Virus record (IMG/VR): IMGVR_UViG_3300042908_000237
Location: 1 to 48,861 of that record
From: a virus
Direction: 5' to 3' (one strand)
Length of the DNA: 48,861 bases
Shown here: positions 2,574-48,478 of the stretch, one piece after another
Layout: the number at the start of each line of letters is the position of its first letter
Position numbering within the stretch: position 1 is the first letter of the stretch
The notes under the pieces: model-generated
The model's database searches: none
Told to the model about the DNA's origin: nothing
Seen by the model: the letters and a program-made list of their open reading frames with translations, nothing else
Program-made: the position numbers and the translations under genes

Positions 2574-2759
2574 TTATTTTCTGTCTGTCAAATTCCAGTT
2601 AGTTGTAAATTTTCTATATTGTTGCTTGCTCTGACCTGGTGTGTCATCAACATATTTAGCAGTCGATTCTGGTCGACCCCATTCACCTGCACCAGCTTGT
2701 GAGACAAACTCTTGTGGTTGAGTCTTATCTACCTTTAGAAAATCTTTGAATGTTTTCAT
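2574..2759 (-). CDS. Small hypothetical protein (61 aa)
   Basis: The start at 2759 is favoured over an upstream in-frame codon because its ATG overlaps the TGA of the Fe-S carrier gene as ATGA, a sign of translational coupling. The product begins MKTFKDFLK and is rich in Gln, Ser, Thr and charged residues, with no membrane segment or recognisable motif. No function is suggested beyond co-expression with the neighbours. Confidence 0.6.
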
Positions 2760-3079
2760 ATCGTGAATGATGAACCACAACCACAAGTTGCAGTTACGTT
2801 AGGATTTTTGATTGTAAATGATGCGCCCATCAAATCTTCTTTATAATCGACTTCCGCTTCTCTCATGTATTGCATACTCATGCTGTCTACTACAACACCA
2901 ATGCCATCTTTTTCAAATGTAAAATCATCGTCTGCTGGTGGCAATTCTTCAAGTGTAAAGCCATATTGAAAGCCAGAACAACCACCACCCTGAACGAACA
3001 CACGCAGTTTCAGTGATGAATCTTCTTCATCAATAATCGATTTGATTTTCTTTGCTGCTGAATCAGATATGGTAATCAT
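2756..3079 (-). CDS. A-type iron-sulfur cluster carrier (IscA/ErpA-like)
   Basis: 107 aa, the usual length of A-type carriers. The three cluster-binding cysteines are present in the family arrangement: Cys34 in GGGCSGFQY and Cys99/Cys101 in the C-terminal CGCGSSF. Such proteins hold and hand over [2Fe-2S] or [4Fe-4S] clusters to apo-enzymes in the cytosol. The downstream gene starts with an ATGA overlap; the upstream gene ends 1 nt before this start. Phage clients could include the radical SAM enzyme encoded at 32951-34471, which is an inference. The family call is firm; the choice between IscA, ErpA and SufA is not possible here. Confidence 0.92.
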
Positions 3080-3352
3080 TTAGCCTCTTGTCAATGTCAG
3101 AATTTTTTGCATCTGTTTCTCAATAGCAGGACCACGATTTGGCCAATGAATGTATGGTTGATTTGCGGTCTTGTAAAGATTCGTCAAAAATGGCATGATG
3201 ATCTTTTCAACTTGCTGTAGTCTTGCTTTGTATTCTTCAACAGTTTCATCTTTCTCTGCAATGACTGCTTGATACTCAACTTCATCTACGGTAGAAAATC
3301 CAAAATCACTATCACCGTATTCTGCCATAATTTTATTGATATCGTATTCCAT
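3080..3352 (-). CDS. Hypothetical protein (90 aa)
   Basis: The start at 3352 is chosen because its ATG overlaps the preceding TAA by one base (TAATG). The product (MEYDINKIM...) is mostly helical and rich in Glu, Lys and Gln, with an HWPNRGP segment near residue 70 ahead of a short C-terminal helix. No catalytic motif or membrane segment is seen. It lies between the ligase-like gene and the Fe-S carrier gene. I do not recognise its function. Confidence 0.6.
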   Translation of the reverse strand: MEYDINKIMAEYGDSDFGFSTVDEVEYQAVIAEKDETVEEYKARLQQVEKIIMPFLTNLYKTANQPYIHWPNRGPAIEKQMQKILTLTRG

Positions 3353-4575
3353 TATTTGTCCCATGCCTTTTGTGCGTTGAAATTTTGTCTGCTGAACTCA
3401 AGTCTGTCTACCAACTTCAGTGCTTTGCCTAAGTGGTCAACTGCTACGAATCCCTCTGGTGCAGTAATACGGAAGCCATCGTCTGTACGAACAAATGTAC
3501 CAATGCTCTTGATCGTTTCTAACTTACGAATGATCATCAGTTTGGCATCAACAATCAAATTCATCAAATCGAATATCAGCTTCAATTGAATGGCATTTGA
3601 ACGGTAGAAACGCATGACTTCATTTTTTTCTTTGATACGTTTTTGTTTTGTTTCTTCTTTCTTGGCTGCAAGAATCTCTTTGTTCAGTTTTGCTTCAACC
3701 CAATTCAACAACTCTTGTGTGTGAATTCTTGTATCAGCAATCTTTTTGCCTTCACGAACTTTTGTATTATTGAATGTTTTGATTTGTGTTAGAAAAACTT
3801 CTGATGCAGCAATACGATTCAATGTCAGTGCTGGTATTGTATTGAACAAACGACCAGCATTAGAAAGAATTGATGTGATAGCGGCAGTTTCTTCTTGTGT
3901 GAATGTTGCTGAACCAGATGCGTCAGTAAATGAAGCATCACGGAACCAAACATCTTTTGTTGTTTTCAAATGACCAATATCAATGTTGAATGACGCTTTC
4001 ATTGTCTCTAATGATTTACCGGAATAGGATGTATGAAACACTACACCAATCTGTGCAGCAAGCATTGTCTGTGCCAGTTTTGATTTTGTTGGCACAGCAT
4101 ACACAATTGTGTTTGGCTGAAATGTGATATACTCTTCACCATCAATCGTTTCTTTTGAGATGTCATCTTTTGAGAACATCATATCACCTTGCAACACACC
4201 TTTGATGCCTAACTTAGGCAAGTATGCAAGTGCAAGTTTAAGTTTTTGATTGAGTCCTTCGCCGGGATGATTCTCATCAATATCTTTATCAGTATAATTC
4301 AACTTTGCATTTTTTGCAAATACTGATTTTGTACCAACAAAAAATTCACCGTTCTCTGGATTTGTACCAGCAAAGATAGCAGGTGCGCCATCCCACTTTG
4401 TTGTTACATTGATTTTGCTGCCAGTATGACCAGCAAGCATATTACGCAAAGAACGTAGAAACTCTATTGCTTCACGTGCGCCAGACACCCCACCGTTCAA
4501 TACATTATCTTCCAAATGCTCCAAATGCACGTTCTTACCTTCTTTACTTTCTTTTATAAATTCTGTGAATTTCAT
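3352..4575 (-). CDS. DUF6267-type protein with ligase-like KWDG motif
   Basis: 407 aa. Residues 60-63 read KWDG inside TTKWDGAPAIF, closely resembling motif I (KxDG) of ATP-dependent DNA/RNA ligases and capping nucleotidyltransferases, where the Lys takes the AMP or GMP. Downstream are an EFFVGTKSVF strand near residue 80 and GVLQGDMMF near 126-134, which resemble the later strands of that fold (motifs IIIa and IV). A clear C-terminal motif V (KxK) is not seen. The C-terminal third is helical with a Lys/Glu-rich stretch. It shares an ATGA overlap with the nuclease gene upstream. I recall this family from marine T4-like phages as DUF6267; nucleotidyltransferase activity is an inference. Confidence 0.6.
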   Translation of the reverse strand: MKFTEFIKESKEGKNVHLEHLEDNVLNGGVSGAREAIEFLRSLRNMLAGHTGSKINVTTKWDGAPAIFAGTNPENGEFFVGTKSVFAKNAKLNYTDKDIDENHPGEGLNQKLKLALAYLPKLGIKGVLQGDMMFSKDDISKETIDGEEYITFQPNTIVYAVPTKSKLAQTMLAAQIGVVFHTSYSGKSLETMKASFNIDIGHLKTTKDVWFRDASFTDASGSATFTQEETAAITSILSNAGRLFNTIPALTLNRIAASEVFLTQIKTFNNTKVREGKKIADTRIHTQELLNWVEAKLNKEILAAKKEETKQKRIKEKNEVMRFYRSNAIQLKLIFDLMNLIVDAKLMIIRKLETIKSIGTFVRTDDGFRITAPEGFVAVDHLGKALKLVDRLEFSRQNFNAQKAWDK

Positions 4576-5300
4576 GCTGAAATACTTAGAAATGGGTTAG
4601 ATTTTTTTGTTCCTGGTGCAACTGAAAATTTGCTGTTCGGCATTTTTTTGATTTTGATTTCGGCTTGAACTTCATAAAATTCAGAACGTGTAGCAACACG
4701 AACTTTGAAATCACCACTACCCGACAGAACAGGAACACCTTTTATCTTTAGAGGATTCTTTTTTGATATCATATAAAAATCATCACCTGCTTGCATGTAA
4801 TATGCTGGTTCTGCTTTACCTATTGTGTAGTGTTCAGTGACAACATCACCTAAGTTATAGTTTTCTTCATTTGCAATATAACGATTGATTCCAGGTTGAT
4901 CAAAGAATGCTTTCATGACATGTAACGGAACAGCACCCTCTTCTTTTAGACCACTTTTTGTAGTGGGTATCTTGATCATTTTTTCAGGAATGCCAGAAAA
5001 CTTAGCAATATCTTTGATAAACTTTTTTGCTTGTGCCGAACGATTCAATATGTCAACAGTATATTTTGCGGCAGGAGTCTTGTATGTTGTATGCCATTTT
5101 CCCTTTTCATAGAAAACACGTGGATTAGATAAGTTGTCTGTATGAGACATCTTCACTTCAATCCAGATTTTCATCTTATTGTATTCCATCAGTACATCAG
5201 AATACTCTGTGCTTACCTTTGGTCTTTTTGCTGTGATTCCAGGAATTTTGTTGATATTCTTGGCTACATCATTTTCAAACTTATCTGAAGCCGCACTCAT
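4572..5300 (-). CDS. PD-(D/E)XK-type nuclease
   Basis: 242 aa with AAGGAG ahead of the ATG. Near the N-terminus, YSDVLMEY carries Asp35, and IWIEVKMSH carries Glu48-Val-Lys50. The D-x12-ExK spacing, with a preceding helix containing Glu9, fits the metal-binding core of the PD-(D/E)XK endonuclease fold. The rest is unrecognised. A TATAAATA late-promoter element lies 28 nt upstream, so this gene and the ligase-like gene coupled to it may be expressed late. Nuclease family is likely from the motif; target (DNA junctions, host DNA, nicks) is unknown. Confidence 0.65.
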   Translation of the reverse strand: MSAASDKFENDVAKNINKIPGITAKRPKVSTEYSDVLMEYNKMKIWIEVKMSHTDNLSNPRVFYEKGKWHTTYKTPAAKYTVDILNRSAQAKKFIKDIAKFSGIPEKMIKIPTTKSGLKEEGAVPLHVMKAFFDQPGINRYIANEENYNLGDVVTEHYTIGKAEPAYYMQAGDDFYMISKKNPLKIKGVPVLSGSGDFKVRVATRSEFYEVQAEIKIKKMPNSKFSVAPGTKKSNPFLSISA

Positions 5301-5327
5301 TGAATACTCCTTTTGACGTTATTAGAG

Positions 5328-5335
5328 TATTTATA
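5328..5335 (-). promoter_or_regulatory. Late promoter element TATAAATA
   Basis: The minus strand reads TATAAATA exactly, matching the T4 late promoter recognised by gp55 with gp45 and gp33. It overlaps the gp41 stop codon and lies 28 nt before the ATG of the PD-(D/E)XK gene, leaving room for a short leader with the AAGGAG ribosome site. Confidence 0.7.
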
Positions 5336-6731
5336 CTTTGAAGCCTCCGAACTTGTTGCCAGAAGTTCTCTCACGATCACCGAATGTATTGAGTGGTTTA
5401 TCATCTACTTGACCAGAATCTACCAAGTCATCTTGAGCTGCCTGTTCAACATCATACAGTTTCATCTTGGCTCTGTCAATACCGATGACAAATCGTTTGT
5501 AGTATGTCGGATCATTGTATCGATTCTTGAGTTGCTTTATCATCAACTGATTCAATTGTTGCAACTCTTCGGTACTTATCAAAGCGAACATAAAGTCGGC
5601 TGTGGCTGGCAGACCGAACGATTCTGACGTATCTTCCAAGCCTGGATCCGAGCTGGTGAAGCCGCTTCTGGTCGTCTGAGTAGCTGAGACTATCGGAACA
5701 TCAAACTCGACGGCCAGACCCCTCAATTCTTCGGCAATCGCCTTGATATAAGAATAACTATTTACATTAGCACCAGGCTTGATTCTGGCGCTTGCACATA
5801 TATTCAAATAGTCAATAAAAATGATGTCAGGTTTGAAACTTTTCTTTAGTTGCAATTCATTCAACAAAGCACGGAAATGCAAGGCCGACGCCGCAGCAGT
5901 CGGATACTCTTTGATGATAAGTTTACCATGTGTGTTCACTTTCAGGGCAGAAAACTTACGATCATAGTCTTGCTTGCTGATTGAGTTCAGATCAGCAATA
6001 TCAATGTTCAACAGATTGGCATCAACACGTTCAGCGATTCGTTCTTCTGCCATCTCCATGGTGATGTACAAAACATTCAGACCTTGTGCCAAACAAGCAC
6101 CCGCAACGTGACACATGAACAAAGATTTACCAACGCCGGTGCCAGCAAGTGCAATGTTCAATGTTTTCTTTGGCAGACCACCTTTTGTAATCCTGTTGAA
6201 CAAATCAAGGTCGAAAGGAATCTTTGTCTCATGTCGATGATAGAAGTCATATCGAGAGTTCGCATCATCCATGTAATCATGACCGACAGATGAATCAAAT
6301 GAAACACCCAGAGCATCACTCAATAATTTTGGAATTGAACCCTTTTCTTCTTTGCTGTTTTTGTCATCAAGAATCTTGACTGATTGCATGATGGCATTAT
6401 ACAAAGCACGATCTTGACAGAATTTTTCTGTTTGATTGATGAGCCAATCAACGTCAGTTGGCTCTTCTTTCTCAGCATTGATTTCACGAATCATTTGAAC
6501 AGAGTCTTGAACCTGTTCTTCAGTGAGTTTCTTTGATTCTGTAAAATTGATTACAAGTGATTCGTAAGTAGGAAGATGTTTGTACTGATGAATGTGTTCG
6601 TTGATTTCATTGAACACAATTTTTTCTACATTGTCTGTGAAATATTCTGTCTTGATAAAAGGAAGTATCTTACGAGCATATTCTTCATTGAATATCAAGT
6701 TCTTCAAAATTGTTGTTTCTAGTCTTTTCAT
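5331..6731 (-). CDS. 41: Replicative DNA helicase (T4 gp41, DnaB family)
   Basis: 466 aa, close to T4 gp41 (about 475 aa). The N-terminal half is the helical DnaB-like domain; the RecA-like domain begins near residue 170 with Walker A AGTGVGKS at 196-203, then YITMEMAEERIAERVDAN (H1a-type) and the Walker B strand IIFIDYLNI. The hexamer unwinds the lagging-strand template 5' to 3' ahead of the gp43 polymerase and carries the primase. The start overlaps the previous small gene by 47 nt. No primase gene (gp61) is in this window. Confidence 0.95.
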   Translation of the reverse strand: MKRLETTILKNLIFNEEYARKILPFIKTEYFTDNVEKIVFNEINEHIHQYKHLPTYESLVINFTESKKLTEEQVQDSVQMIREINAEKEEPTDVDWLINQTEKFCQDRALYNAIMQSVKILDDKNSKEEKGSIPKLLSDALGVSFDSSVGHDYMDDANSRYDFYHRHETKIPFDLDLFNRITKGGLPKKTLNIALAGTGVGKSLFMCHVAGACLAQGLNVLYITMEMAEERIAERVDANLLNIDIADLNSISKQDYDRKFSALKVNTHGKLIIKEYPTAAASALHFRALLNELQLKKSFKPDIIFIDYLNICASARIKPGANVNSYSYIKAIAEELRGLAVEFDVPIVSATQTTRSGFTSSDPGLEDTSESFGLPATADFMFALISTEELQQLNQLMIKQLKNRYNDPTYYKRFVIGIDRAKMKLYDVEQAAQDDLVDSGQVDDKPLNTFGDRERTSGNKFGGFKV

Positions 6732-7050
6732 TCTCTTGCTCAGTTAGTATTTCAGTTAGAATGTCACCTATCATTGTATGAAAATCCTCATCATTTTGCA
6801 AGTCTTGAGAGGTGAACTTTGAAGAATTGAGGATGGTGTATGAAAAAGACAATCGTGCAAACTCACCTTCTTCAATTACTTTTGCGGTGCCATAACGATA
6901 AATGACACCAGCATATTTTCCTCTAAGTATGCTGATGCCAACTATCTTATCTTCTTCGTCGGAGAGATACTGAAAATCTACATTATGCAGATACTTCAGT
7001 TTCTTCTTCGGCGTTATCTTGTCCCATAATGCTGCTATAAGTGATTTCAT
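6685..7050 (-). CDS. Hypothetical protein between uvsX and gp41
   Basis: 121 aa. It overlaps uvsX by 68 nt at its start and gp41 by 47 nt at its end, so about a third of the gene is read in two frames. The middle has a beta-rich segment (IVGISILRGKYAGVIYRYG) and the C-terminus is acidic and helical. No motif is recognised. The position between two core replication genes and the unbroken frame argue that it is real; a shorter start is possible, as the ribosome site ahead of 7050 (AGAAAG) is weak. Confidence 0.6.
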   Translation of the reverse strand: MKSLIAALWDKITPKKKLKYLHNVDFQYLSDEEDKIVGISILRGKYAGVIYRYGTAKVIEEGEFARLSFSYTILNSSKFTSQDLQNDEDFHTMIGDILTEILTEQENEKTRNNNFEELDIQ

Positions 7051-8041
7051 ATTTCTTTCTCACAAACTCTTTGAATCTTTCATCAGCAAGAATATCTTTC
7101 CAGAACTCTTCTGTTTGAGTATCAGCAAAGCGTTTCTTATCTAAAACTTCACCAGTTTCTTGATCGACTTTAGCATACCAACCATTGCTTGGCTTTGCTA
7201 CGAAATTGCCTTCGAGTGCAATATCCAATAGACCAGACCACTTGTTAATGCCACCGTCAAAGGATACAGTAACAGGTATTTTAGATTTTTCTCTGACATA
7301 TCTTGATTTTTCTACATTGATGATAAAGTTATAGCCGACAACCTCTGTGCCATCTTTGTCTTGTTGACGACCAAGAATCCAGATTGTGTCTGCTGAGTAA
7401 TAAGAACCTGTACCGCCACCAACAATGTCTTTAGGAAACATGCCAATCTCTTTGTATGTGTGATTGACAACAACCATTGGAATATCTTTGATTGTCAAAT
7501 GTGGTGTGACCATACGAAACAACGACTTCATCTGTTTTGCACGGCTCATATCAGCAACAGACTTGCCTTCGATTGAATCTTCGACTTCTTTCTTTGATGC
7601 TAAATTACCAATTGAATCAAGGACAATAATTACTTTATCATCTTTATCAATATTTTGCAACTGATTCATGATATCATGTTTCAATTGTTCAACATCAGTA
7701 ATTGGTGTGTGAAGAACACGTTCAGTATCAATACCAAATGCATCAAAGTATGATTGCGGTGTGCCGAACTCTGAATCATAAAACAAAACAACGGCATCTT
7801 CATATTTTTTCATATATGATTTTGCCATCAATAAAGCAAAGGCGGTTTTGAAATGTTTCGATGGTCCCGCAAACATCGTCAGTCCTGGTGTTAATCCACC
7901 ATCTAGATTACCTGATAGTGCCACATTAACGATAGGCACATCAGTTTGAATCATATCTTTATCTGTAAAGAATTTTGATTTAGAAAGTATCGATGTTTCT
8001 TTGATTGTCGATGCTTTCTTTAGTTTATCCATTACGCTCAT
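6983..8041 (-). CDS. uvsX: UvsX RecA-like recombinase
   Basis: 352 aa (T4 UvsX about 391). Walker A is GPSKHFKT at 59-66, the unusual Ser-Lys-rich P-loop shared with T4 UvsX, and Walker B is IIVLDSIGN near residue 140. A KEIGMFPKDIVGGGTG stretch matches the conserved DNA-binding loop 2 area. The acidic C-terminal tail (EEETEVS) fits RecA-type proteins. ATG 8041 has GGAG 6 nt ahead, which decides it over ATG 8032. It forms filaments on ssDNA for strand exchange and recombination-dependent replication with UvsY and UvsW, both in this window. Confidence 0.96.
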   Translation of the reverse strand: MSVMDKLKKASTIKETSILSKSKFFTDKDMIQTDVPIVNVALSGNLDGGLTPGLTMFAGPSKHFKTAFALLMAKSYMKKYEDAVVLFYDSEFGTPQSYFDAFGIDTERVLHTPITDVEQLKHDIMNQLQNIDKDDKVIIVLDSIGNLASKKEVEDSIEGKSVADMSRAKQMKSLFRMVTPHLTIKDIPMVVVNHTYKEIGMFPKDIVGGGTGSYYSADTIWILGRQQDKDGTEVVGYNFIINVEKSRYVREKSKIPVTVSFDGGINKWSGLLDIALEGNFVAKPSNGWYAKVDQETGEVLDKKRFADTQTEEFWKDILADERFKEFVRKKYEITYSSIMGQDNAEEETEVSA

Positions 8042-27649: not shown

Positions 27650-28186
27650 TTATTCTACATCATCCTCTAAGAATTGTTCAAGACCTTCTGACTTCTTTGC
27701 CTTCTTTTTCTTCTTATTTTCCTCGAAGTTGTGGATAAACTCGGAGATATTATCGTACAGTTCGAACTGTCTCATGTTACCATCAATATCTTCATACATT
27801 TCACCTTCATCTAGTAATCCAAATTGTTGTGTTGCTTTGTACTTCACATACAGTTGCTTCTTTTCCCGCATAATTCTACGTAGAAATGCATAGTAAATTA
27901 TCTGTGTAAAGTAAGCAAATGGATTCTTAGATTTGTCTGGATCAAAGTTACGGAAGTATTGAATACAGTTTTCTACACCATCAGATATCATCTCATCACG
28001 GTAAGTATATGAAATGAAGTTAGGCTTGCGTGATAGATGTTCCGCAATCTTCAAAAAACATTCACCAATGTAATCTGGTATCTTTGGCTCTGATGTGTTA
28101 TTTTCTTTTGCTGCTTTACAATCATCACGATACTTGATAAGTGCTGTCAAAAAGTCGGCGTTGTTTACGTAGTGTTTAGTTGCCAT
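27650..28186 (-). CDS. 55: Late-transcription sigma factor (T4 gp55)
   Basis: 178 aa (T4 185). The segment FAYFTQIIYYAFLRRI, preceded by DPDKSKNP, matches the sigma region-2-like core of gp55. The acidic, hydrophobic tail (LEQFLEDDVE) after a lysine-rich stretch fits the C-terminal clamp-binding peptide that lets gp45 activate late promoters. It would recognise the TATAAATA elements reported here. Its stop is 5 nt before the cytidylyltransferase ATG. Confidence 0.95.
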   Translation of the reverse strand: MATKHYVNNADFLTALIKYRDDCKAAKENNTSEPKIPDYIGECFLKIAEHLSRKPNFISYTYRDEMISDGVENCIQYFRNFDPDKSKNPFAYFTQIIYYAFLRRIMREKKQLYVKYKATQQFGLLDEGEMYEDIDGNMRQFELYDNISEFIHNFEENKKKKKAKKSEGLEQFLEDDVE

Positions 28187-29127
28187 TATACATTACCGTA
28201 AATATTATTTTTGAGATATGTATAACCCTTGATAAGTTCTTCAACACCATCATCTAATGTGTGATATGGCACCCAACCAGTTGCTTCTAACTTTTCGTTT
28301 GACACAATGTAGTTACGCTGATCTGGATCTTTCTTGATGTCGCCTTCTACAATCGTAAAGTTTGGCAGTTGTCTCTTGATGATTTCACACAATTCTAACT
28401 TGGAGACATTTGCAGATGAAAGACCAACATTGTAAATTTGTCCTTTCATTTCATCAAACTGATAAATTGCATGTAGAAATGCTTCACATACATCACGAAC
28501 ATGAATGTAGTTGCGTTTGAAGTGTCCTTCAAAGATAACAACATAGCCATCATTGACAGCACGATAAGTCAAATCATTTACTAGCAAATCAGTACGCATA
28601 CGTGGTGACATGCCAAACACTGTAGCAAGACGATAACTAATTGAGTTCTCACGTTCCATCAATACTTTTTCAACAGCAACTTTATCCACAGCATACTTTG
28701 AAATAGGGCGCAGTGGTGAATCTTCAGTGCAGAAATTGTTTTCATCACCTGTGCCATAAGCTGAATTGGTAGTAGGCATGATGATACGCTGTTCTTTTGA
28801 TGTAGCATTGAGCATCCAGAATACAGCATCTTTATTTGTTGTATCTGCACCAACAACATCTTTATTACAGAGTGGCGCACCAACCAAAGCAGCAAGAGGA
28901 ATGATAATGTCTGCTTGTTTGAGGAGAGGTGTAACATGCGCTGGATTACGAATATCTCCATTTACAATTGTTAGATTTTTATTATCGCAAAGATGATTCA
29001 GACCTGACTGACGAAACATAAAGTTATCTAATACCGTAACTTGAAAGTTCATCTGAAGTAGATACTCTACTAGAATACAACCAATGTAACCAGCACCACC
29101 AGTTACTAATACTTTTTGCCGATCCAT
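28186..29127 (-). CDS. NAD-dependent sugar epimerase/dehydratase
   Basis: 313 aa. Rossmann GGAGYIG near residue 10, catalytic Tyr in SKYAVDK (YxxxK), Thr-rich MPTTNSAYG and FKRNYIHVRDV place it in the extended SDR family of UDP- or GDP-sugar epimerases/dehydratases. It starts 2 nt after the dehydratase gene and overlaps gp55 by 1 nt. Substrate unknown; a 4-keto or 4-epi nucleotide sugar is likely from context. Confidence 0.88.
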   Translation of the reverse strand: MDRQKVLVTGGAGYIGCILVEYLLQMNFQVTVLDNFMFRQSGLNHLCDNKNLTIVNGDIRNPAHVTPLLKQADIIIPLAALVGAPLCNKDVVGADTTNKDAVFWMLNATSKEQRIIMPTTNSAYGTGDENNFCTEDSPLRPISKYAVDKVAVEKVLMERENSISYRLATVFGMSPRMRTDLLVNDLTYRAVNDGYVVIFEGHFKRNYIHVRDVCEAFLHAIYQFDEMKGQIYNVGLSSANVSKLELCEIIKRQLPNFTIVEGDIKKDPDQRNYIVSNEKLEATGWVPYHTLDDGVEELIKGYTYLKNNIYGNV

Positions 29128-29128
29128 A

Positions 29129-30304
29129 TTATACCCTATTCAAAATGTTTACGATTTCGTCAATTTGTGATTCTTTAAGTGTTGGATAATTTCCAATATA
29201 GAAACTATAAAAGTGCATATGATCCGTGTTTGGAAAGTTACGATAGTGATCTTTTGGTACAATATTTTCCAAATATGGTTGACGTAATTGATTACCACCA
29301 CCAGCAGAGCCTCTTCTGAACTCAACCTCTTCATCACGCATTTTATTCATCAAACGATTTACAAAATATTCTGTGCAATATTCAGGCTGTAAAACAATGT
29401 TGAACGCATAGTTGCTACAACCAACAAGTTTGAAATCTACTTTGTATTTCTTTTGATCTAGTTTAGATAAAAAGTGAAATAGATTTTTATTTCTTAGATC
29501 AACATTTTTATCCAGATACTTCAACTGATTCTGACCAAGAATGCCACCAATTTCATTGTTACGCATATTGTATGCTGGATATGCAAAGATGAAATCTGGA
29601 TTCAGTGTTGGATATTTCTTTTTATAATCATCAGACATCTTTTCTGAACCACACTCACGAATCATACCATGTGAACGAAGCATACGAACTGTGTGATAAA
29701 CTTCTTCATCGTTTGTACAAACCATACCACCTTCAATTGTAGACATATGATGAGCAAAGTAGAATGAGAAGTTTGACATCCAACCATAACTACCTAACAA
29801 TCTACCATTATGCATAGCGCCATGTGATTCGCAAACATCTTCAATCAAAGGAATGTTACGATGACGAAGAACTTCCAACACTCTGTCAGATAAACAATCA
29901 AAGCCTTGTGCATAGGTAATAAACACAGCACGTGTTTTATCTGTGATAGCATTCAGTATGCCACCTTCATTCATACCAAGAGTGTCTAAGTCGATGTCAA
30001 CAAACACTGGCGTAAATCCACATTGAATGATTGATGCGATATCAGATACCCATGTAAATGGTGGTACAATCACTTCACCACCTTCTGGATGTTTGATCTT
30101 CAACATTGTCATTGACAATAGATTTGCCGAAGCACCAGAGTTGACAAAGACTGAATACTTTACGCCCAACCATTTAGACCATGCTTCTTCAAAAGCACGA
30201 CACTCTGGTCCATTTGTAAGTTTTGGATTATCTTTTTTGAGATGTTCTATTACCAAATCTAAATCTTCTCTAGTAATATTGTCAGACATTAGCGGATACT
30301 TCAT
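29129..30304 (-). CDS. PLP-dependent 3-dehydratase-like protein (DegT/ColD family, His in place of Lys)
   Basis: 391 aa from ATG 30304 (GGAG 5 nt ahead); upstream ATG/GTG codons are in frame. It has the DegT/DnrJ/EryC1 fold: NSGASANL near 57, PPFTWVSD near 83, IEDVCESHGA (PLP-ring Asp). Where aminotransferases have the PLP-binding Lys, it has His185 in YFAHHMSTIEGG. The same HH occurs in ColD and RfbH/E1, which remove the 3-hydroxyl of keto-sugars instead of transaminating. So 3-deoxygenation of a nucleotide sugar is the best call. The family is firm; the reaction is an inference from the substitution. Confidence 0.85.
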   Translation of the reverse strand: MKYPLMSDNITREDLDLVIEHLKKDNPKLTNGPECRAFEEAWSKWLGVKYSVFVNSGASANLLSMTMLKIKHPEGGEVIVPPFTWVSDIASIIQCGFTPVFVDIDLDTLGMNEGGILNAITDKTRAVFITYAQGFDCLSDRVLEVLRHRNIPLIEDVCESHGAMHNGRLLGSYGWMSNFSFYFAHHMSTIEGGMVCTNDEEVYHTVRMLRSHGMIRECGSEKMSDDYKKKYPTLNPDFIFAYPAYNMRNNEIGGILGQNQLKYLDKNVDLRNKNLFHFLSKLDQKKYKVDFKLVGCSNYAFNIVLQPEYCTEYFVNRLMNKMRDEEVEFRRGSAGGGNQLRQPYLENIVPKDHYRNFPNTDHMHFYSFYIGNYPTLKESQIDEIVNILNRV

Positions 30305-30306
30305 CA

Positions 30307-31290
30307 TCACTCCATAATTATTTTACTACCAGTGTAATCAAATTTGAACGGCACCCATATATTGATTTCGGGTATTGCTTGTCTTATTATATCATGTTTT
30401 TCTGGAGATGCAAGAAACATAAAGAAACCACCACCACCTGCACCCATAAGTTTACCGCCATAAGCACCAGCACTCACTGCTTTATCATATATGTTATCTA
30501 TATACCTTGTTGTAACATCATCCGTCAATTTTCTTTTGTAATTCCATTGCATATCAAGTAAAGCTCCAATATCTTTCATTGGTGCTTCCTGCATAAACAA
30601 TGCCAAAGCATCATCGGAAATTTTAGATATTGTCTTTAGATATTCCTTTGACTTGCCCGTTTTGATATTATCGACTTGTTGTTTAGCATGAACATCTGCT
30701 AATCGATCTATACCAGAAAAGCCTAACATAATATGACTTTCTAAAACATCCAAATAACTTGTAGACACTTTTAGTGGTGAGACTTTGATATTGCCACCAG
30801 AAAGTTCAATCACATTTACTCCACCATGTGCAGCAGAGATTTGATCTTGAACGCCAACAGATTCGCCTATGTAATTCTGTTCAATGTTTATCGCATCGAT
30901 TGCCAATTCATAAGGCGAATATGTTCGTCGCTGATATCGTGCAATAGCATGTATCAGTCCAACAGTAAATGCAGAAGATGATCCAATGCCCGAACGAGCA
31001 GGTAAATCACCATCATGACTAATAGAAATTCCGTTAGATATATCATAATACTTCAGACACTCCCTTACAGATGGATGGTCTATTTCTGAGATATCATTGA
31101 CGCTTTCTATCTTTGAATAGATAATCCGGTTAGCGTGTTCAAAATACGGCGGCAACTTCTTCAAACTTATATAGCAATAATGTGCCATGGCAGCAGTGAT
31201 TACTTTAGTTGAATGGCTGTTGAACCAATCAGGGTAATCTGTGCCACCTCCAAACAATGACAGACGATATGGTGTCTTAGAAATTATCAT
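30307..31290 (-). CDS. GHMP-family sugar kinase (heptose-phosphate-kinase-like)
   Basis: 327 aa. N-terminal TPYRLSLFGGGTDYPDW, the ATP loop PARSGIGSSSAFTVG near residue 98 and the C-terminal GKLMGAGGGGFF are the three GHMP motifs; the N-terminal GGGTDYP form is that of D-glycero-D-manno-heptose 7-phosphate kinases (HddA) and fucokinase-like proteins. It phosphorylates a sugar at the anomeric carbon for later nucleotidylation. Overlaps the transketolase C-half by 14 nt. Confidence 0.85.
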   Translation of the reverse strand: MIISKTPYRLSLFGGGTDYPDWFNSHSTKVITAAMAHYCYISLKKLPPYFEHANRIIYSKIESVNDISEIDHPSVRECLKYYDISNGISISHDGDLPARSGIGSSSAFTVGLIHAIARYQRRTYSPYELAIDAINIEQNYIGESVGVQDQISAAHGGVNVIELSGGNIKVSPLKVSTSYLDVLESHIMLGFSGIDRLADVHAKQQVDNIKTGKSKEYLKTISKISDDALALFMQEAPMKDIGALLDMQWNYKRKLTDDVTTRYIDNIYDKAVSAGAYGGKLMGAGGGGFFMFLASPEKHDIIRQAIPEINIWVPFKFDYTGSKIIME

Positions 31291-32194
31291 TCAGAGTTTT
31301 CAGAATATTGTCTTTGTTCAAACCTAATTTATTCAATAGGTATTCTCTTCCACCATTTTCAAAGACATACATTTCAGGAATAGTAATTTGTTTTACTTTC
31401 TTGAGTATGTCACTATCTGACATTGCTTCCATGACTGCCGCACCAAGAGAGCCTGATGGTGTTTGCTCATCGATAACAATAACACCCGCACTCACATCGA
31501 TTGCATTCAGCAAAGTTTTAGGAAATGGCTTTGACTGAATTAGATCAACACCGAAAATTCTATTTGGCTGTTCATCATATGCTTGCTTGACAATGTGAGC
31601 CATTTTACCAGAACCAATTACAACAACTTTGTCTTGATTTACTATATCACCCATTGCACGATACTGCAAATCAGTTTTGAAGTTGGTCACATCAAGTTCT
31701 GGTTGTTCATGTCTATCAAGTCTTACATAACAAAACTCTGGCTTATCTAAAAGTTTTTTTGCCAATCGTCTTGATGTTTCCGAATCGGCTGTAGTGTAAA
31801 TGTTCACGTTCATAATTGAACGCAGACACGCAAAATCTTCTGTGATGTAATGAGTGGGACCAGCATCAGCATAACCAATGCCAATACCGACAGACATAAT
31901 ACAGATTGGTAAATCCATCATACTAGGACCGCATTTGATTTGCTCAATCGCACGAAGAGAGATAAATGGTGCCATTGCATAACAGAATACTTTCTTTCCT
32001 TCAAGTGCAAGACCCGTGGCAATGTCAATCATTGCTTGTTCAGAGATGCCGCAGTGAATAAAGTTTTCTGGATACTTCTCACGAAGTTCATCAAGTGCAG
32101 CAGCACCAAAATCAGCAGACAAAAAGTAAATGTCTTTGTCTGTTTTCAGTCTTTCGTTTATCTCTTCAATAAAAGCATCACGCTGTAGCATCAT
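31277..32194 (-). CDS. Transketolase, C-terminal (Pyr and C) half
   Basis: 305 aa. FIHCGISEQAMIDIATGLAL near residue 41-60 is the pyrimidine-binding domain signature with the catalytic Glu, followed by GPTHYITED and the C-terminal domain. It pairs with the N-half gene just upstream, an arrangement common in archaeal and polysaccharide-locus transketolases. ATG 32194 with GGAG 4 nt ahead (ATG 32191 also possible). Confidence 0.88.
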   Translation of the reverse strand: MMLQRDAFIEEINERLKTDKDIYFLSADFGAAALDELREKYPENFIHCGISEQAMIDIATGLALEGKKVFCYAMAPFISLRAIEQIKCGPSMMDLPICIMSVGIGIGYADAGPTHYITEDFACLRSIMNVNIYTTADSETSRRLAKKLLDKPEFCYVRLDRHEQPELDVTNFKTDLQYRAMGDIVNQDKVVVIGSGKMAHIVKQAYDEQPNRIFGVDLIQSKPFPKTLLNAIDVSAGVIVIDEQTPSGSLGAAVMEAMSDSDILKKVKQITIPEMYVFENGGREYLLNKLGLNKDNILKTLNDNF

Positions 32195-32948
32195 TTATCT
32201 CCTTGCGGCATTGTTCAATCTGTTCTGGTGTAATTGGTTGCATGTAGTGCCATTCTGGTTTGTTCTCCATCAAACTGAAACCTTTACCCTTGACTGTGTT
32301 TGCAATAATAATTTTTGGTTTTGTTGATGAAGCATCCAGTGCTGCTTCGATAGCGTTTGTATCATGTCCATCAATAGAAAAAATATCAAATTCAAAACCA
32401 GATAACTTTTGATGAATTGAATTGAGTTTCAAACAATCATCTGTCTGACCAAGAATAATCAGATTATTGACATCAATAAAGATTGTCATGTTTGGTATCT
32501 GACGATGTGCAACAAACAACAATGCTTCCCATGTTGAGCCTTCGTATAGTTCGCCCTCCGAGATAATCACATAAACATGTTTGTTTGGATCAGCAAGTGC
32601 CATACCAGCACCGACTCCAACACCATGGCCAAGAGAACCAGATGTCATATCAATACCTGGAATTGATACATTACCAAACACACGCAGACATGTATCTTTG
32701 TTCTTACCCCAATTCTCCCAATCTTCTTTTGGTAGAATATGCAAGTCTTTTAGAATAGGATACAATGCAACTGTTGCATGACCTTTACTAATCAAAACTT
32801 TATCTTCTAGACCTACATAACCAGCATGATAAAGTGTAGTGACAATCTCTAACATTGAGAATGTAGAACCAGGATGACCTTGTTTTACTTCTACAAATTT
32901 CTCAAATAATTCTTTGCGATATAAGTTTGCTTTACGTTGCAAATCCAT
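32178..32948 (-). CDS. Transketolase, N-terminal (TPP-binding) half
   Basis: 256 aa from ATG 32948 with GGAG 7 nt ahead. Landmarks: GHPGS near residue 25, SKGHA near 55, GSLGHGVGVGAGMAL near 104-118 and EGELYEGSTWEA near 130. The metal-binding GDG of the TPP motif reads SEG here. It should form, with the C-half, a TPP enzyme that moves a two-carbon ketol unit between sugars. Overlaps the radical SAM stop by none and the C-half start by 17 nt. Confidence 0.87.
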   Translation of the reverse strand: MDLQRKANLYRKELFEKFVEVKQGHPGSTFSMLEIVTTLYHAGYVGLEDKVLISKGHATVALYPILKDLHILPKEDWENWGKNKDTCLRVFGNVSIPGIDMTSGSLGHGVGVGAGMALADPNKHVYVIISEGELYEGSTWEALLFVAHRQIPNMTIFIDVNNLIILGQTDDCLKLNSIHQKLSGFEFDIFSIDGHDTNAIEAALDASSTKPKIIIANTVKGKGFSLMENKPEWHYMQPITPEQIEQCRKEINDATA

Positions 32949-32950
32949 AA

Positions 32951-34471
32951 TCAATCTCCAAGTATTTTTCGTTTCAGTTTTATTTTCGACATCTCTTCAA
33001 GATTTTGGCGTGAATCTGCACCAAACTTTGTTTCTACAAGATTCAGGAATGGCTCATGTGAAAAGTATTTGTGCCATGCTTCATCACGGAACTTCAACAC
33101 TTCTGCACCAGTCAATGTTTTTGTACGCAGAGGTTTGCAGTCATATGATAAGAACGCAAACTCTTCAAATCTTTCTGGCAAATCCCATCCGTTATTCTTG
33201 GCGTACATGTACAATGGACTACCAGGCAATGCCATTGCAGCATAGAAGTTTGCATGTTCGGTGTTCAATTCAAGTGACAAATCAAGTGTCTCTTGCATTG
33301 TCTCCATCGTATCTTCGGGGAAACCAAACATGTAATTACCAAGAATGTTGATGTCTGCTGCCTTGACATCAGCAACAACACGACGAATATCTACATCTTC
33401 AAACTTGCCCTTCTCAATTTCAAGGCGTACATTTTGGTTTGCTGCTTCGATGCCAAGACACAACCAATTCACACCTGCTTCTTTGAATAGTTCAAGTTGA
33501 TCTTTGCGGACAGAATCAACACGTGCATATGCCCAGAAGTTGAAATCCATACCACGTTGTTTGATGCCTTCTAGAATTGGTATATAATATTTTTTATTCA
33601 GAAAGAACATCTCATCTGTTAGACGAACAGTACGAACACCATTCTCATACAGATATTCAAACTCTTTGAGCATTAGTTCTGGTGACCAGAAACGCATACC
33701 ACGTGAATCGGATGATACTGTGCCTTGTTCATATGATGTACGATTCACAATGTTGATCATACAGAAATTACATCCAAATGAACAACCTAGTGATGTAGAG
33801 ATAGCAGCAAACGGTGTGCGATTCTCATCATCTTTGAAATAGTTGTGCCAGTAGTGGGCACGATATTTGTCTAACAGTTTTTTATCTTTTGGCAACAAGT
33901 CCCATGCGTAGCCTGGCATTACATTGTCCATATCTTTCGTTTGAACAATTTGACCAGGCGCACCAGTTGCAGCAAAGCCGTGTTTTTTGTATACCAAACC
34001 ACGAACTTTTTCTAAATCATCAACATAGTTTGTTTGTAGCAAATCTAACAAACCATACACACCTTCATTGATGAAAACAAAATCAACATAAGGTAAACCA
34101 ATTACATCATATGGCAATGCAGATGCATGTGAGCCAACGAATACAGTCTTGATGTTTGGATGTGATTGTTTGAGTTGTGTTGCTAACTTTGATGCACCAA
34201 TCATCATCGTGGTGCCTGAATTTGGATTTTGTCCATAAAGAACAAAGACTGCTATATCAGTTTTTGTCTTAGCAATTCTTTCTGCTGCTTCTTCAACGTC
34301 TGTTGGCTCAGCATCGAAATCTAAAATGCAAGGATCGTGGCCTGCAACACGAACGGCGTTAGCAAGAAGCAATGCCCATGTTGGAGGTTCAATAGCAGAA
34401 TACTTATTCGCCAGTGCCTGATATGCTTGAGCAGCACTGCTCGGTATTACAAATGTCACCACTTTTGACAT
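32951..34471 (-). CDS. B12-binding-domain radical SAM enzyme
   Basis: 506 aa. An N-terminal cobalamin-binding-like Rossmann domain (about 1-150) precedes a radical SAM core with Cys230-x3-Cys234-x2-Cys237 in LGCSFGCNFC, a GIEAAN strand and GFPEDTMETM in the TIM barrel. The family does methyl transfer to unreactive carbons, ring contraction and other radical steps. A [4Fe-4S] cluster is needed; the phage carries an A-type Fe-S carrier at 2756. It heads the sugar cassette. Substrate unknown. Confidence 0.85.
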   Translation of the reverse strand: MSKVVTFVIPSSAAQAYQALANKYSAIEPPTWALLLANAVRVAGHDPCILDFDAEPTDVEEAAERIAKTKTDIAVFVLYGQNPNSGTTMMIGASKLATQLKQSHPNIKTVFVGSHASALPYDVIGLPYVDFVFINEGVYGLLDLLQTNYVDDLEKVRGLVYKKHGFAATGAPGQIVQTKDMDNVMPGYAWDLLPKDKKLLDKYRAHYWHNYFKDDENRTPFAAISTSLGCSFGCNFCMINIVNRTSYEQGTVSSDSRGMRFWSPELMLKEFEYLYENGVRTVRLTDEMFFLNKKYYIPILEGIKQRGMDFNFWAYARVDSVRKDQLELFKEAGVNWLCLGIEAANQNVRLEIEKGKFEDVDIRRVVADVKAADINILGNYMFGFPEDTMETMQETLDLSLELNTEHANFYAAMALPGSPLYMYAKNNGWDLPERFEEFAFLSYDCKPLRTKTLTGAEVLKFRDEAWHKYFSHEPFLNLVETKFGADSRQNLEEMSKIKLKRKILGD

Positions 34472-39948: not shown

Positions 39949-40599
39949 TTAGAGTTTTCGTAGGAAGTTTTCGAAAAGTTGAAGTCCAACGGACTCAATA
40001 TCTTTACGAGATGCTTGACGAATCTGTTTTTTAGCGTAGTCAATATGTGACTCAACAAAACGACCCTCAACATACATCCATTCTTTGTTTTCCATGATGC
40101 CTTGAACAAATGCACCTGGTGCTGAAGGGTCAGCAACAATGTCTGCTGCTGTGGCAAGACGCAAATCATCTTGAACCAAATTGTAACCTTCTTTTGTCAT
40201 TACGACTGAGCCAAGGGCACGTGAAGAAACACCTAGATTCACACCAGAATCAATCAGATTCTTAGCAATCTGTCCATATGGTGTTTCCATAATGAGTGCT
40301 TTACCGATAAATGTATTACCGTTTTCTTTGAGGCTAACAATCTTATGTGACACACGTTCAAGATTGAGTGATGGTGTATCAGGATGTCCTAGTTCGCCAA
40401 GCGCACGGTTTGACTCAATGAGTTCTTTGTTATAACGTGCAACTTCATTACGCAATGTATCCATTTTGTACATACGATTGTTGCGATTGACTGCATCGCC
40501 AACAAGAAAGATTCCTTCGATGTACATTTGTTTTTTACCATCTTCTGTTTTTTCGGTAAGATAGCGAACTTCTTCAATATGTTCTTTGATGAGTTTCAT
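39949..40599 (-). CDS. 21: Prohead protease (T4 gp21)
   Basis: 216 aa (T4 212). LGELGHP with His72 and VNLGVSSRALGS with Ser125-126 match the catalytic His/Ser segments of the herpes-assemblin-like prohead proteases. It cleaves scaffold and gp23 at L/I-x-E sites during head maturation. The start codon shares one base with the stop of the upstream gene. Confidence 0.95.
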   Translation of the reverse strand: MKLIKEHIEEVRYLTEKTEDGKKQMYIEGIFLVGDAVNRNNRMYKMDTLRNEVARYNKELIESNRALGELGHPDTPSLNLERVSHKIVSLKENGNTFIGKALIMETPYGQIAKNLIDSGVNLGVSSRALGSVVMTKEGYNLVQDDLRLATAADIVADPSAPGAFVQGIMENKEWMYVEGRFVESHIDYAKKQIRQASRKDIESVGLQLFENFLRKL

Positions 40600-48043: not shown

Positions 48044-48478
48044 TTATCGAGTAAAACTCTTTAGCATCCAACCATGTTTTTGATGAGCGTCAAGAATGTC
48101 TTGAAGAAAATTACCTACTGCTGGTTCATCAGCAGCATCAGCAAGAGCAATGCCTGTACGAAGTTCGAGAATGTACTTGTTGTTATCATTTACAAGTTCA
48201 CTCATCATAACCAATGGTGATGGTATTGCTACCAAGTCATTTACTTTAGAAAGTTCCATCATTCGTGCTAATGTGGTAGGTGCATATGAACCTAAAGCAC
48301 GAATATGTTCTGCAATAGAATCTGTCTGGTCAAACACAGATTCATAAAAGTCACCTAAGAAGCCGTGATATTGTGCAAAATCTGGACCTTCTACATTCCA
48401 GTGAAATGTATGTGCCTTGAAATACAAACCGAAGTTTGTGCCAAGGATAATTTTCATTTGTTCGATTAGTTGTTCCAT
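48044..48478 (-). CDS. dps: Dps-like ferritin (DNA-binding protein from starved cells family)
   Basis: 144 aa. HWNVEGPDFAQYHGFL and the following DQTDSIAEHIRALG match the Dps helix pair. Ferroxidase ligands His26, His38, Asp53 and Glu57 keep the exact spacing of the Dps inter-subunit site (as His31, His43, Asp58, Glu62 in Listeria Dps). Such dodecamers oxidise and store iron with H2O2, protecting DNA. No long basic N-terminal tail, so direct DNA binding is uncertain. Its place between gp16 and gp17 is unusual. Confidence 0.88.
   Translation of the reverse strand: MEQLIEQMKIILGTNFGLYFKAHTFHWNVEGPDFAQYHGFLGDFYESVFDQTDSIAEHIRALGSYAPTTLARMMELSKVNDLVAIPSPLVMMSELVNDNNKYILELRTGIALADAADEPAVGNFLQDILDAHQKHGWMLKSFTR

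Follow-up and report, generated by a model that had tools for sequence, protein, structure and literature searches.

Proteins of bacteriophage T4 are directed into the head by a capsid-targeting sequence of about 10 N-terminal residues, which has key positions 4, 7, 8 and 10 and is cut after L/I-x-E (PMC9026906). Many of the tagged internal proteins of T4 enter the cell by injection and work against its defences (PMC3012670). Since 2010 the literature has described T4-like cyanophages as having no recognisable gene for a DNA ligase or for RNase H. Homologues of g30 were reported absent from cyanomyoviruses, 'distant homologues ... not yet identified' being one possibility named (PMC2984593). 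The subgroup 2.1 jumbo phages have no known DNA ligase, but encode a standalone ligase DNA-binding domain (PMC7824862).

The window analysed here is the whole 48,861-nt stretch of virus record IMGVR_UViG_3300042908_000237. It belongs to a T4-like aquatic phage, and its main genes all lie on the minus strand. The locus under study comprises a nuclease gene and a gene of the Pfam family DUF6267, for which no mention was found in the papers searched (Table 1). The reading preferred here, at a probability of about one half, is that a late operon supplies an exchangeable nuclease together with a virion-borne DUF6267 protein of ligase fold, which would act in the next cell. The family assignment of DUF6267, its capsid tag and the exchangeable nuclease are new.

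Table 1. Positions in the window of the genes, signals and protein motifs discussed in the text
Feature	Position	Strand	Remarks
uvsX	6983-8041	minus	before the gp41 helicase gene
gp41 helicase gene	5331-6731	minus	nuclease and DUF6267 genes come after uvsX and gp41
T4-type late promoter TATAAATA	5328..5335	minus	28 nt 5' of the nuclease start codon
Shine-Dalgarno AAGGAG	5307..5312	minus	read from the sequence, 5' of the nuclease gene
Nuclease gene, 242 aa	4572..5300 (5300->4572)	minus	
Glu9 codon (invariant helix glutamate)	5274..5276	minus	47/47 homologues
Nuclease core D35-x12-E48-V-K50	5151..5198	minus	D35, E48 and K50 each 47/47
ATGA stop/start overlap of nuclease and DUF6267 genes	4572..4575	minus	
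DUF6267 gene, 407 aa	3352..4575 (4575->3352)	minus	
Capsid-targeting-like N-terminus MKFTEFIKE	4549..4575	minus	predicted gp21 cut after Glu9 (I-K-E, then S)
Motif I K60-W-D-G63 (predicted nucleotidyl-lysine)	4387..4398	minus	K60, D62 and G63 100% in 83 sequences
Motif III-like Q129-G-D131	4183..4191	minus	Q 97%, G and D 100%
Helical insertion, residues 227-352, between motifs IIIa and IV	3520..3897	minus	DSSP of the model
Motif IV-like E374-G-F-V377	3445..3456	minus	E, G and V 100%
Motif V-like K387-L-V-D-R391	3403..3417	minus	K and R 100%
gp55-type late sigma factor (would read the late promoter)	27650..28186	minus	phrog_234, E 1e-62
gp21-type prohead protease (would cleave the N-terminal tag)	39949..40599	minus	phrog_207, E 3e-74

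The nuclease and DUF6267 genes very probably form a late operon. The ATGA overlap and the late promoter that the sequence-only reading had pointed out are both in place, the promoter standing upstream as it does in T4 late genes. Of 84 distinct regions 5' of the nuclease gene in IMG/VR relatives, 54 contain TATAAATA no more than 110 nt from the start codon, about 1 being expected; the usual distance is about 29 or 35 nt. The element is also present 5' of unrelated partners that occupy the slot (50/100) and is rare at the start of DUF6267 itself (4/175). The promoter is therefore a property of the slot, and drives both genes. Within the window alone the motif is not enriched (4 seen, 2.1 expected); all four copies are on the coding strand. 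Since the window encodes a sliding clamp as well as the gp55-type sigma factor and the gp21-type protease, the machinery required by such a promoter and tag is present.

Other genes of the window were noted in passing. An Fe-S biogenesis protein of the HesB/IscA type (PF01521, E 5e-21; 2756-3079, minus) is encoded directly after the operon, and a Dps/ferritin-like DNA-binding protein (48044-48478, minus) adjoins the terminase gene. A cluster resembling sugar metabolism (28186-34471, minus) was read from the translations as an epimerase, a DegT-type aminotransferase, a GHMP-type kinase, a split transketolase and a B12-binding radical SAM protein.

The first gene of the operon very probably encodes a PD-(D/E)XK nuclease. 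The D-x12-ExK core, already remarked on in the sequence-only reading, is unchanged in 47 homologues spanning down to 18% identity, in which W69 is likewise invariant. In the predicted structure (pLDDT 93.7) the core lies on adjacent strands (E36-40 and E43-50), with the acidic residue of the preceding helix that is expected of this superfamily. The best solved relative was HhaI (6uke; Z 11.1 over 175 of 242 residues, rmsd 3.7), and the overall fold is HhaI-like; the archaeal Hjc and RecU resolvases followed as the next structural group (Z about 7). The nuclease (P0002) has no relative among named phages and carries no capsid tag. GCGC, the site of HhaI, shows no depletion in the window (35 copies against 35.1 expected), and no specificity was inferred for that reason; the phage DNA may carry modifications, and the enzyme may differ in specificity. 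Of other short sites, CGCG is absent from the 48861 bases (25.5 expected), TTAA (25 against 179) and AGCT (26 against 122) are strongly depleted, and GATC is also under-represented; the scarcity of these four is not specific evidence.

The position occupied by the nuclease gene is hypervariable. In 138 of 158 distinct cases the gene just 5' of DUF6267 ends within 12 nt of the DUF6267 start, and 92 of the 158 distinct partners overlap or abut it. These partners fall into 26 families with no BLAST similarity between them. Among pairs of DUF6267 proteins at 95-100% identity the partners were unrelated in 59%, a pair count that ignores shared ancestry; one relative (L082) has a DUF6267 99% identical to that of the window and a different partner. 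The partner in phage DLP6 matched a type II restriction enzyme model (E 2e-12), as did that of L083 (1e-6), and cores of the form D...(S/E)xK can be made out by eye in several others. By this motif alone, most of the other partner families are candidate nucleases. Few families were linked by hhalign, so the partners are not presented as one superfamily. A strict capsid tag is found on the partner protein itself in 17 cases. That unrelated restriction-like nucleases are exchanged next to a ligase-like gene that hardly changes is a sign of strong diversifying selection of the sort seen in conflict systems, here at a single fixed locus in aquatic phages that are very abundant.

This exchange bears on a different role for the nuclease, that of a Holliday-junction or branch resolvase which acts at packaging in place of T4 gp49, with DUF6267 sealing the resulting nicks. 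Late expression, the Hjc and RecU matches and the presence of endonuclease VII (PF02945) in just 2 of 15 records would suit such a role. Against it, HhaI is a far better match and extends over the whole chain, and a housekeeping resolvase would not be expected to swap among 26 unrelated families between near-identical phages. A resolvase is thus considered very unlikely.

The second gene product was matched by DUF6267 (PF19782) over residues 15-403 with an E-value of 6e-116 (388 bits against a curated cut-off of 27), in keeping with the family name given in the sequence-only reading. Residues K60, D62, G63, P65, K83, G130, D131, P154-N-T156, E374, G375, V377, K387 and R391 are invariant in 83 of 83 diverse homologues, which reach down to 29% identity, and the KxDG lysine is also kept in 12 annotated phages and in S-CREM2. 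The later motifs of the nucleotidyltransferase superfamily follow in order: Ia (K83), III (G130-D131), IIIa (P154-N-T-x-x-Y159), IV (E374-G-x-V) and V (K387), as assigned by order and conservation and not by coordinate superposition. The motifs persist in the marine cyanophage forms, some of which are about 300 aa long with much of the insertion missing. A scan of genome contigs gave 38 matches, mostly in metagenome-assembled marine genomes and with no sign of a cellular family; they look like phage contigs in bins.

An AlphaFold2 model of DUF6267 (pLDDT 85.2) was compared with the PDB using VIA-align, and all 50 of the 50 matches listed were RNA or DNA ligases. The best among them was NgrRnl (Z 9.2 over 185 residues), and REL1 (8.4), T4 Rnl1 and Rnl2 (both 7.8) and human LIG1 (about 7) were also listed. 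Foldseek likewise returned ligases among the best PDB matches, with E-values not significant by themselves, and no ligase was matched when the DUF6267 profile was run against PDB sequences using HMMER. The relationship to ligases is for these reasons one of fold and motif. Sequence-only searches of the two window proteins (P0001 and P0002) against PDB sequences found nothing relevant, and profile searches gave the same result. DUF6267 thus combines the KxDG lysine, the nucleotidyltransferase fold and the ordered motifs of the covalent nucleotidyltransferase superfamily. It has no match to PF09414 (Rnl2-type RNA ligases), nor the PF01068 match and OB domain of an ATP-dependent DNA ligase, since only 16 residues, modelled as a single helix, follow R391 of motif V. 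The missing OB domain and the helical insertion mark DUF6267 as a new, divergent branch. Judged from the model, a ligase-superfamily fold is likely.

The sequence-only reading had proposed a late-expressed cut-and-seal pair, which could serve packaging-time repair among other uses, and had named a fold unlike that of ligases or a variable Lys60 as grounds for giving up its ligase; neither was found. Its ligase-like fold, nuclease and late promoter are supported, while the ligase and nuclease roles are predicted from sequence and model. The capsid tag, the hypervariable nuclease slot and the link to the missing cyanophage ligase go beyond it.

DUF6267 might instead be another covalent or non-covalent nucleotidyltransferase (protein AMPylation or capping-like), or a structural internal protein whose pocket has decayed. 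The chain has no OB or end-binding domain, and its motif V reads K-x-V rather than K-x-K, the second lysine being absent. In three relatives (L077, L281 and L297) and in S-PM2 (A0A0M6VVW4), the DUF6267 C-terminus also carries a fused HxGH nucleotidyltransferase domain, of the NMNAT/cytidylyltransferase type. All motif residues are strictly invariant, contrary to decay, and RNA ligases without an OB domain exist within the covalent nucleotidyltransferase superfamily; this alternative is held to be quite unlikely.

HxGH nucleotidyltransferases of either type also recur beside DUF6267, often tagged or fused (L052:9032-11827, L047:8945-10492, L281:4739-7027, L158:7631-9583). In the S-PM2 record NC_006820 (L160:5992-7771) DUF6267 is split over two ORFs, with the C-terminal part annotated as a cytidyltransferase, and it is a single piece in record LN828717; a sequencing or strain difference is the probable cause.

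The N-terminus of DUF6267 has the features of a T4-type targeting sequence, ending in L/I-x-E, and DUF6267 is the sole genuine gene of the window to bear the pattern. The pattern was found within the first 30 or so residues of 159 of 184 distinct DUF6267 proteins (at their own start in 137), and in 40 of 1160 background ORFs, many of them neighbours of DUF6267. It is common to most non-cyanophage relatives; the marine cyanophage forms are without it. Two tagged proteins that occur in virions support the view that these tags function in this virus family. The cytidylyltransferase ORF154 of S-CREM2, with the N-terminus MKNFSSFLTEA, is a virion protein by mass spectrometry, and the T4-GC190 cytidylyltransferase was detected in S-SM1 virions (PMC3037559). 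In Syn33 T4-GC190 lies directly downstream of DUF6267 and starts MKKFSAFLTEA. NMNAT-like proteins are also found in S-SCSM1 virions (PMC9602691). The DUF6267 homologue of S-CREM2 has no tag in its reading frame and is absent from the virion protein list. For the clade of the window, capsid targeting of DUF6267 is predicted from the sequence and is probable. The protein would therefore probably be packaged and injected, which makes the next cell the likely place where it acts.

A short ORF of the window (2574-2786, minus) also has a capsid-tag-like start, and stands where close relatives have a tagged HAD phosphatase gene (MKTFQEFLTERKEGAGLTIFDIDDTL; L006 2978-3769, L107 3229-4020). P-loop kinase (Zeta/AAA_33) and NT5C-like HAD phosphatase genes are found downstream of DUF6267 in some relatives (L214:3818-4537 and 4544-5074; L159:7724-8386). 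Both of the L214 proteins have capsid-tag N-termini, and the kinase and phosphatase genes possibly form an end-healing set.

A genome-delivered DUF6267 could also be an RNA ligase that repairs tRNA or other RNA cut by host defences, alongside the tagged kinases and phosphatases. The structural matches with the highest scores are RNA ligases, tagged HAD phosphatases and P-loop kinases adjoin DUF6267 in some relatives, and tagged T4 internal proteins are known to counter host defences. However, the differences in Z are small, HAD genes occur at just 7 of 110 loci and kinases at 3 of 110, and the partner nucleases (HhaI-like and type II restriction enzymes) look specific for DNA. A dedicated RNA-repair function is accordingly rated as unlikely.

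DUF6267 may be the DNA ligase believed to be missing from T4-like cyanophages, and it offers a concrete, directly testable candidate. It is widespread in these phages and was found in 14 of 14 records tested, among which PF01068 was present in 3 and PF09414 in 1; PF01653 was found in 0 of 15 records. In many genomes its gene adjoins uvsX and gp41. PF04675 missed the published standalone DNA-binding domain above its cut-off, and the P-SSM2 protein then served as query. Relatives of the domain were found in 475 phage records against 461-465 for DUF6267, with a nearly identical spread of hosts. Both are core genes, and this confounded co-occurrence is at most consistent with a joint role. A purely replicative or repair ligase, encoded in a uvsX-gp41-DUF6267 cluster and possibly working with the standalone domain also encoded in these phages, would be what T4-like cyanophages and their relatives are missing, in line with the reported gaps in cyanomyoviruses and in the subgroup 2.1 jumbo phages. 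In the clade of the window, however, the gene has a late promoter and its product a capsid tag, a gp30-type ligase coexists in DLP6 and in two further genomes (G003 and G007, PF01068 in all three), and a host ligase could serve. DUF6267 as a simple replacement of gp30 is weakened by the same promoter, tag and coexisting ligases, and the replicative role is regarded as possible but doubtful.

In the preferred reading, a gp55-type late sigma factor would read the TATAAATA promoter, giving an exchangeable restriction-type nuclease and then the translationally coupled DUF6267. In this phage clade the latter would be drawn into the prohead core by its capsid-targeting sequence, trimmed after I-K-E9 by the gp21 protease, and carried into the next cell as the genome is ejected. 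Lys60 would there take AMP from donor ATP or NAD+, and DUF6267 would close breaks, either in the entering phage DNA or in RNA; the nuclease would cut competing or host nucleic acid. A bolder version makes the pair a cut-and-seal weapon, in which the fast-exchanged restriction nuclease would hit host or rival DNA and the constant virion-borne ligase would restore the phage genome. Its AMP donor NAD+ would be replenished by the NMNAT-like HxGH domain, whether fused to it or encoded alongside, and DUF6267 would at the same time be the missing ligase of the T4-like cyanophages. Taken as a whole this version is rather improbable.

Compared with known systems, DUF6267 shares with the nucleotidyltransferase domains of NgrRnl and of T4 Rnl1 and Rnl2 the predicted adenylyltransferase fold, the KxDG lysine and motifs Ia, III, IIIa, IV and V in order. 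It differs from them in having no detectable sequence similarity, in the helices inserted between motifs IIIa and IV, in the lack of an OB or other C-terminal domain, and in its capsid-targeting N-terminus. With T4 gp30 and other PF01068 DNA ligases it has the superfamily core in common by fold, as the match to human LIG1 indicates; unlike them, it is without a PF01068 match or an OB fold after motif V, and it occurs together with a gp30-type ligase in DLP6. The nuclease resembles HhaI over its whole chain, but at 13% identity, with no cognate methyltransferase gene seen beside it and with GCGC not depleted in the window. The fusions of Rnl2 to HNH in jumbo phages also pair a ligase with a nuclease, and attack plus repair was proposed for them (PMC7824862). 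Here, in contrast, the genes are separate, the nuclease is PD-(D/E)XK and not HNH, the partner is drawn from 26 families, and a capsid tag is present. With T4 IPI-III and Alt, DUF6267 shares a tag that has hydrophobic residues at the targeting spacing and an L/I-x-E cleavage motif. It is set apart from them by its cargo, a ligase-fold enzyme encoded with a nuclease, and by a tag that is dissociable, marine cyanophage DUF6267 being untagged. If packaged, DUF6267 would join the few T4-type enzymes that are injected, as one that seals nucleic acids.
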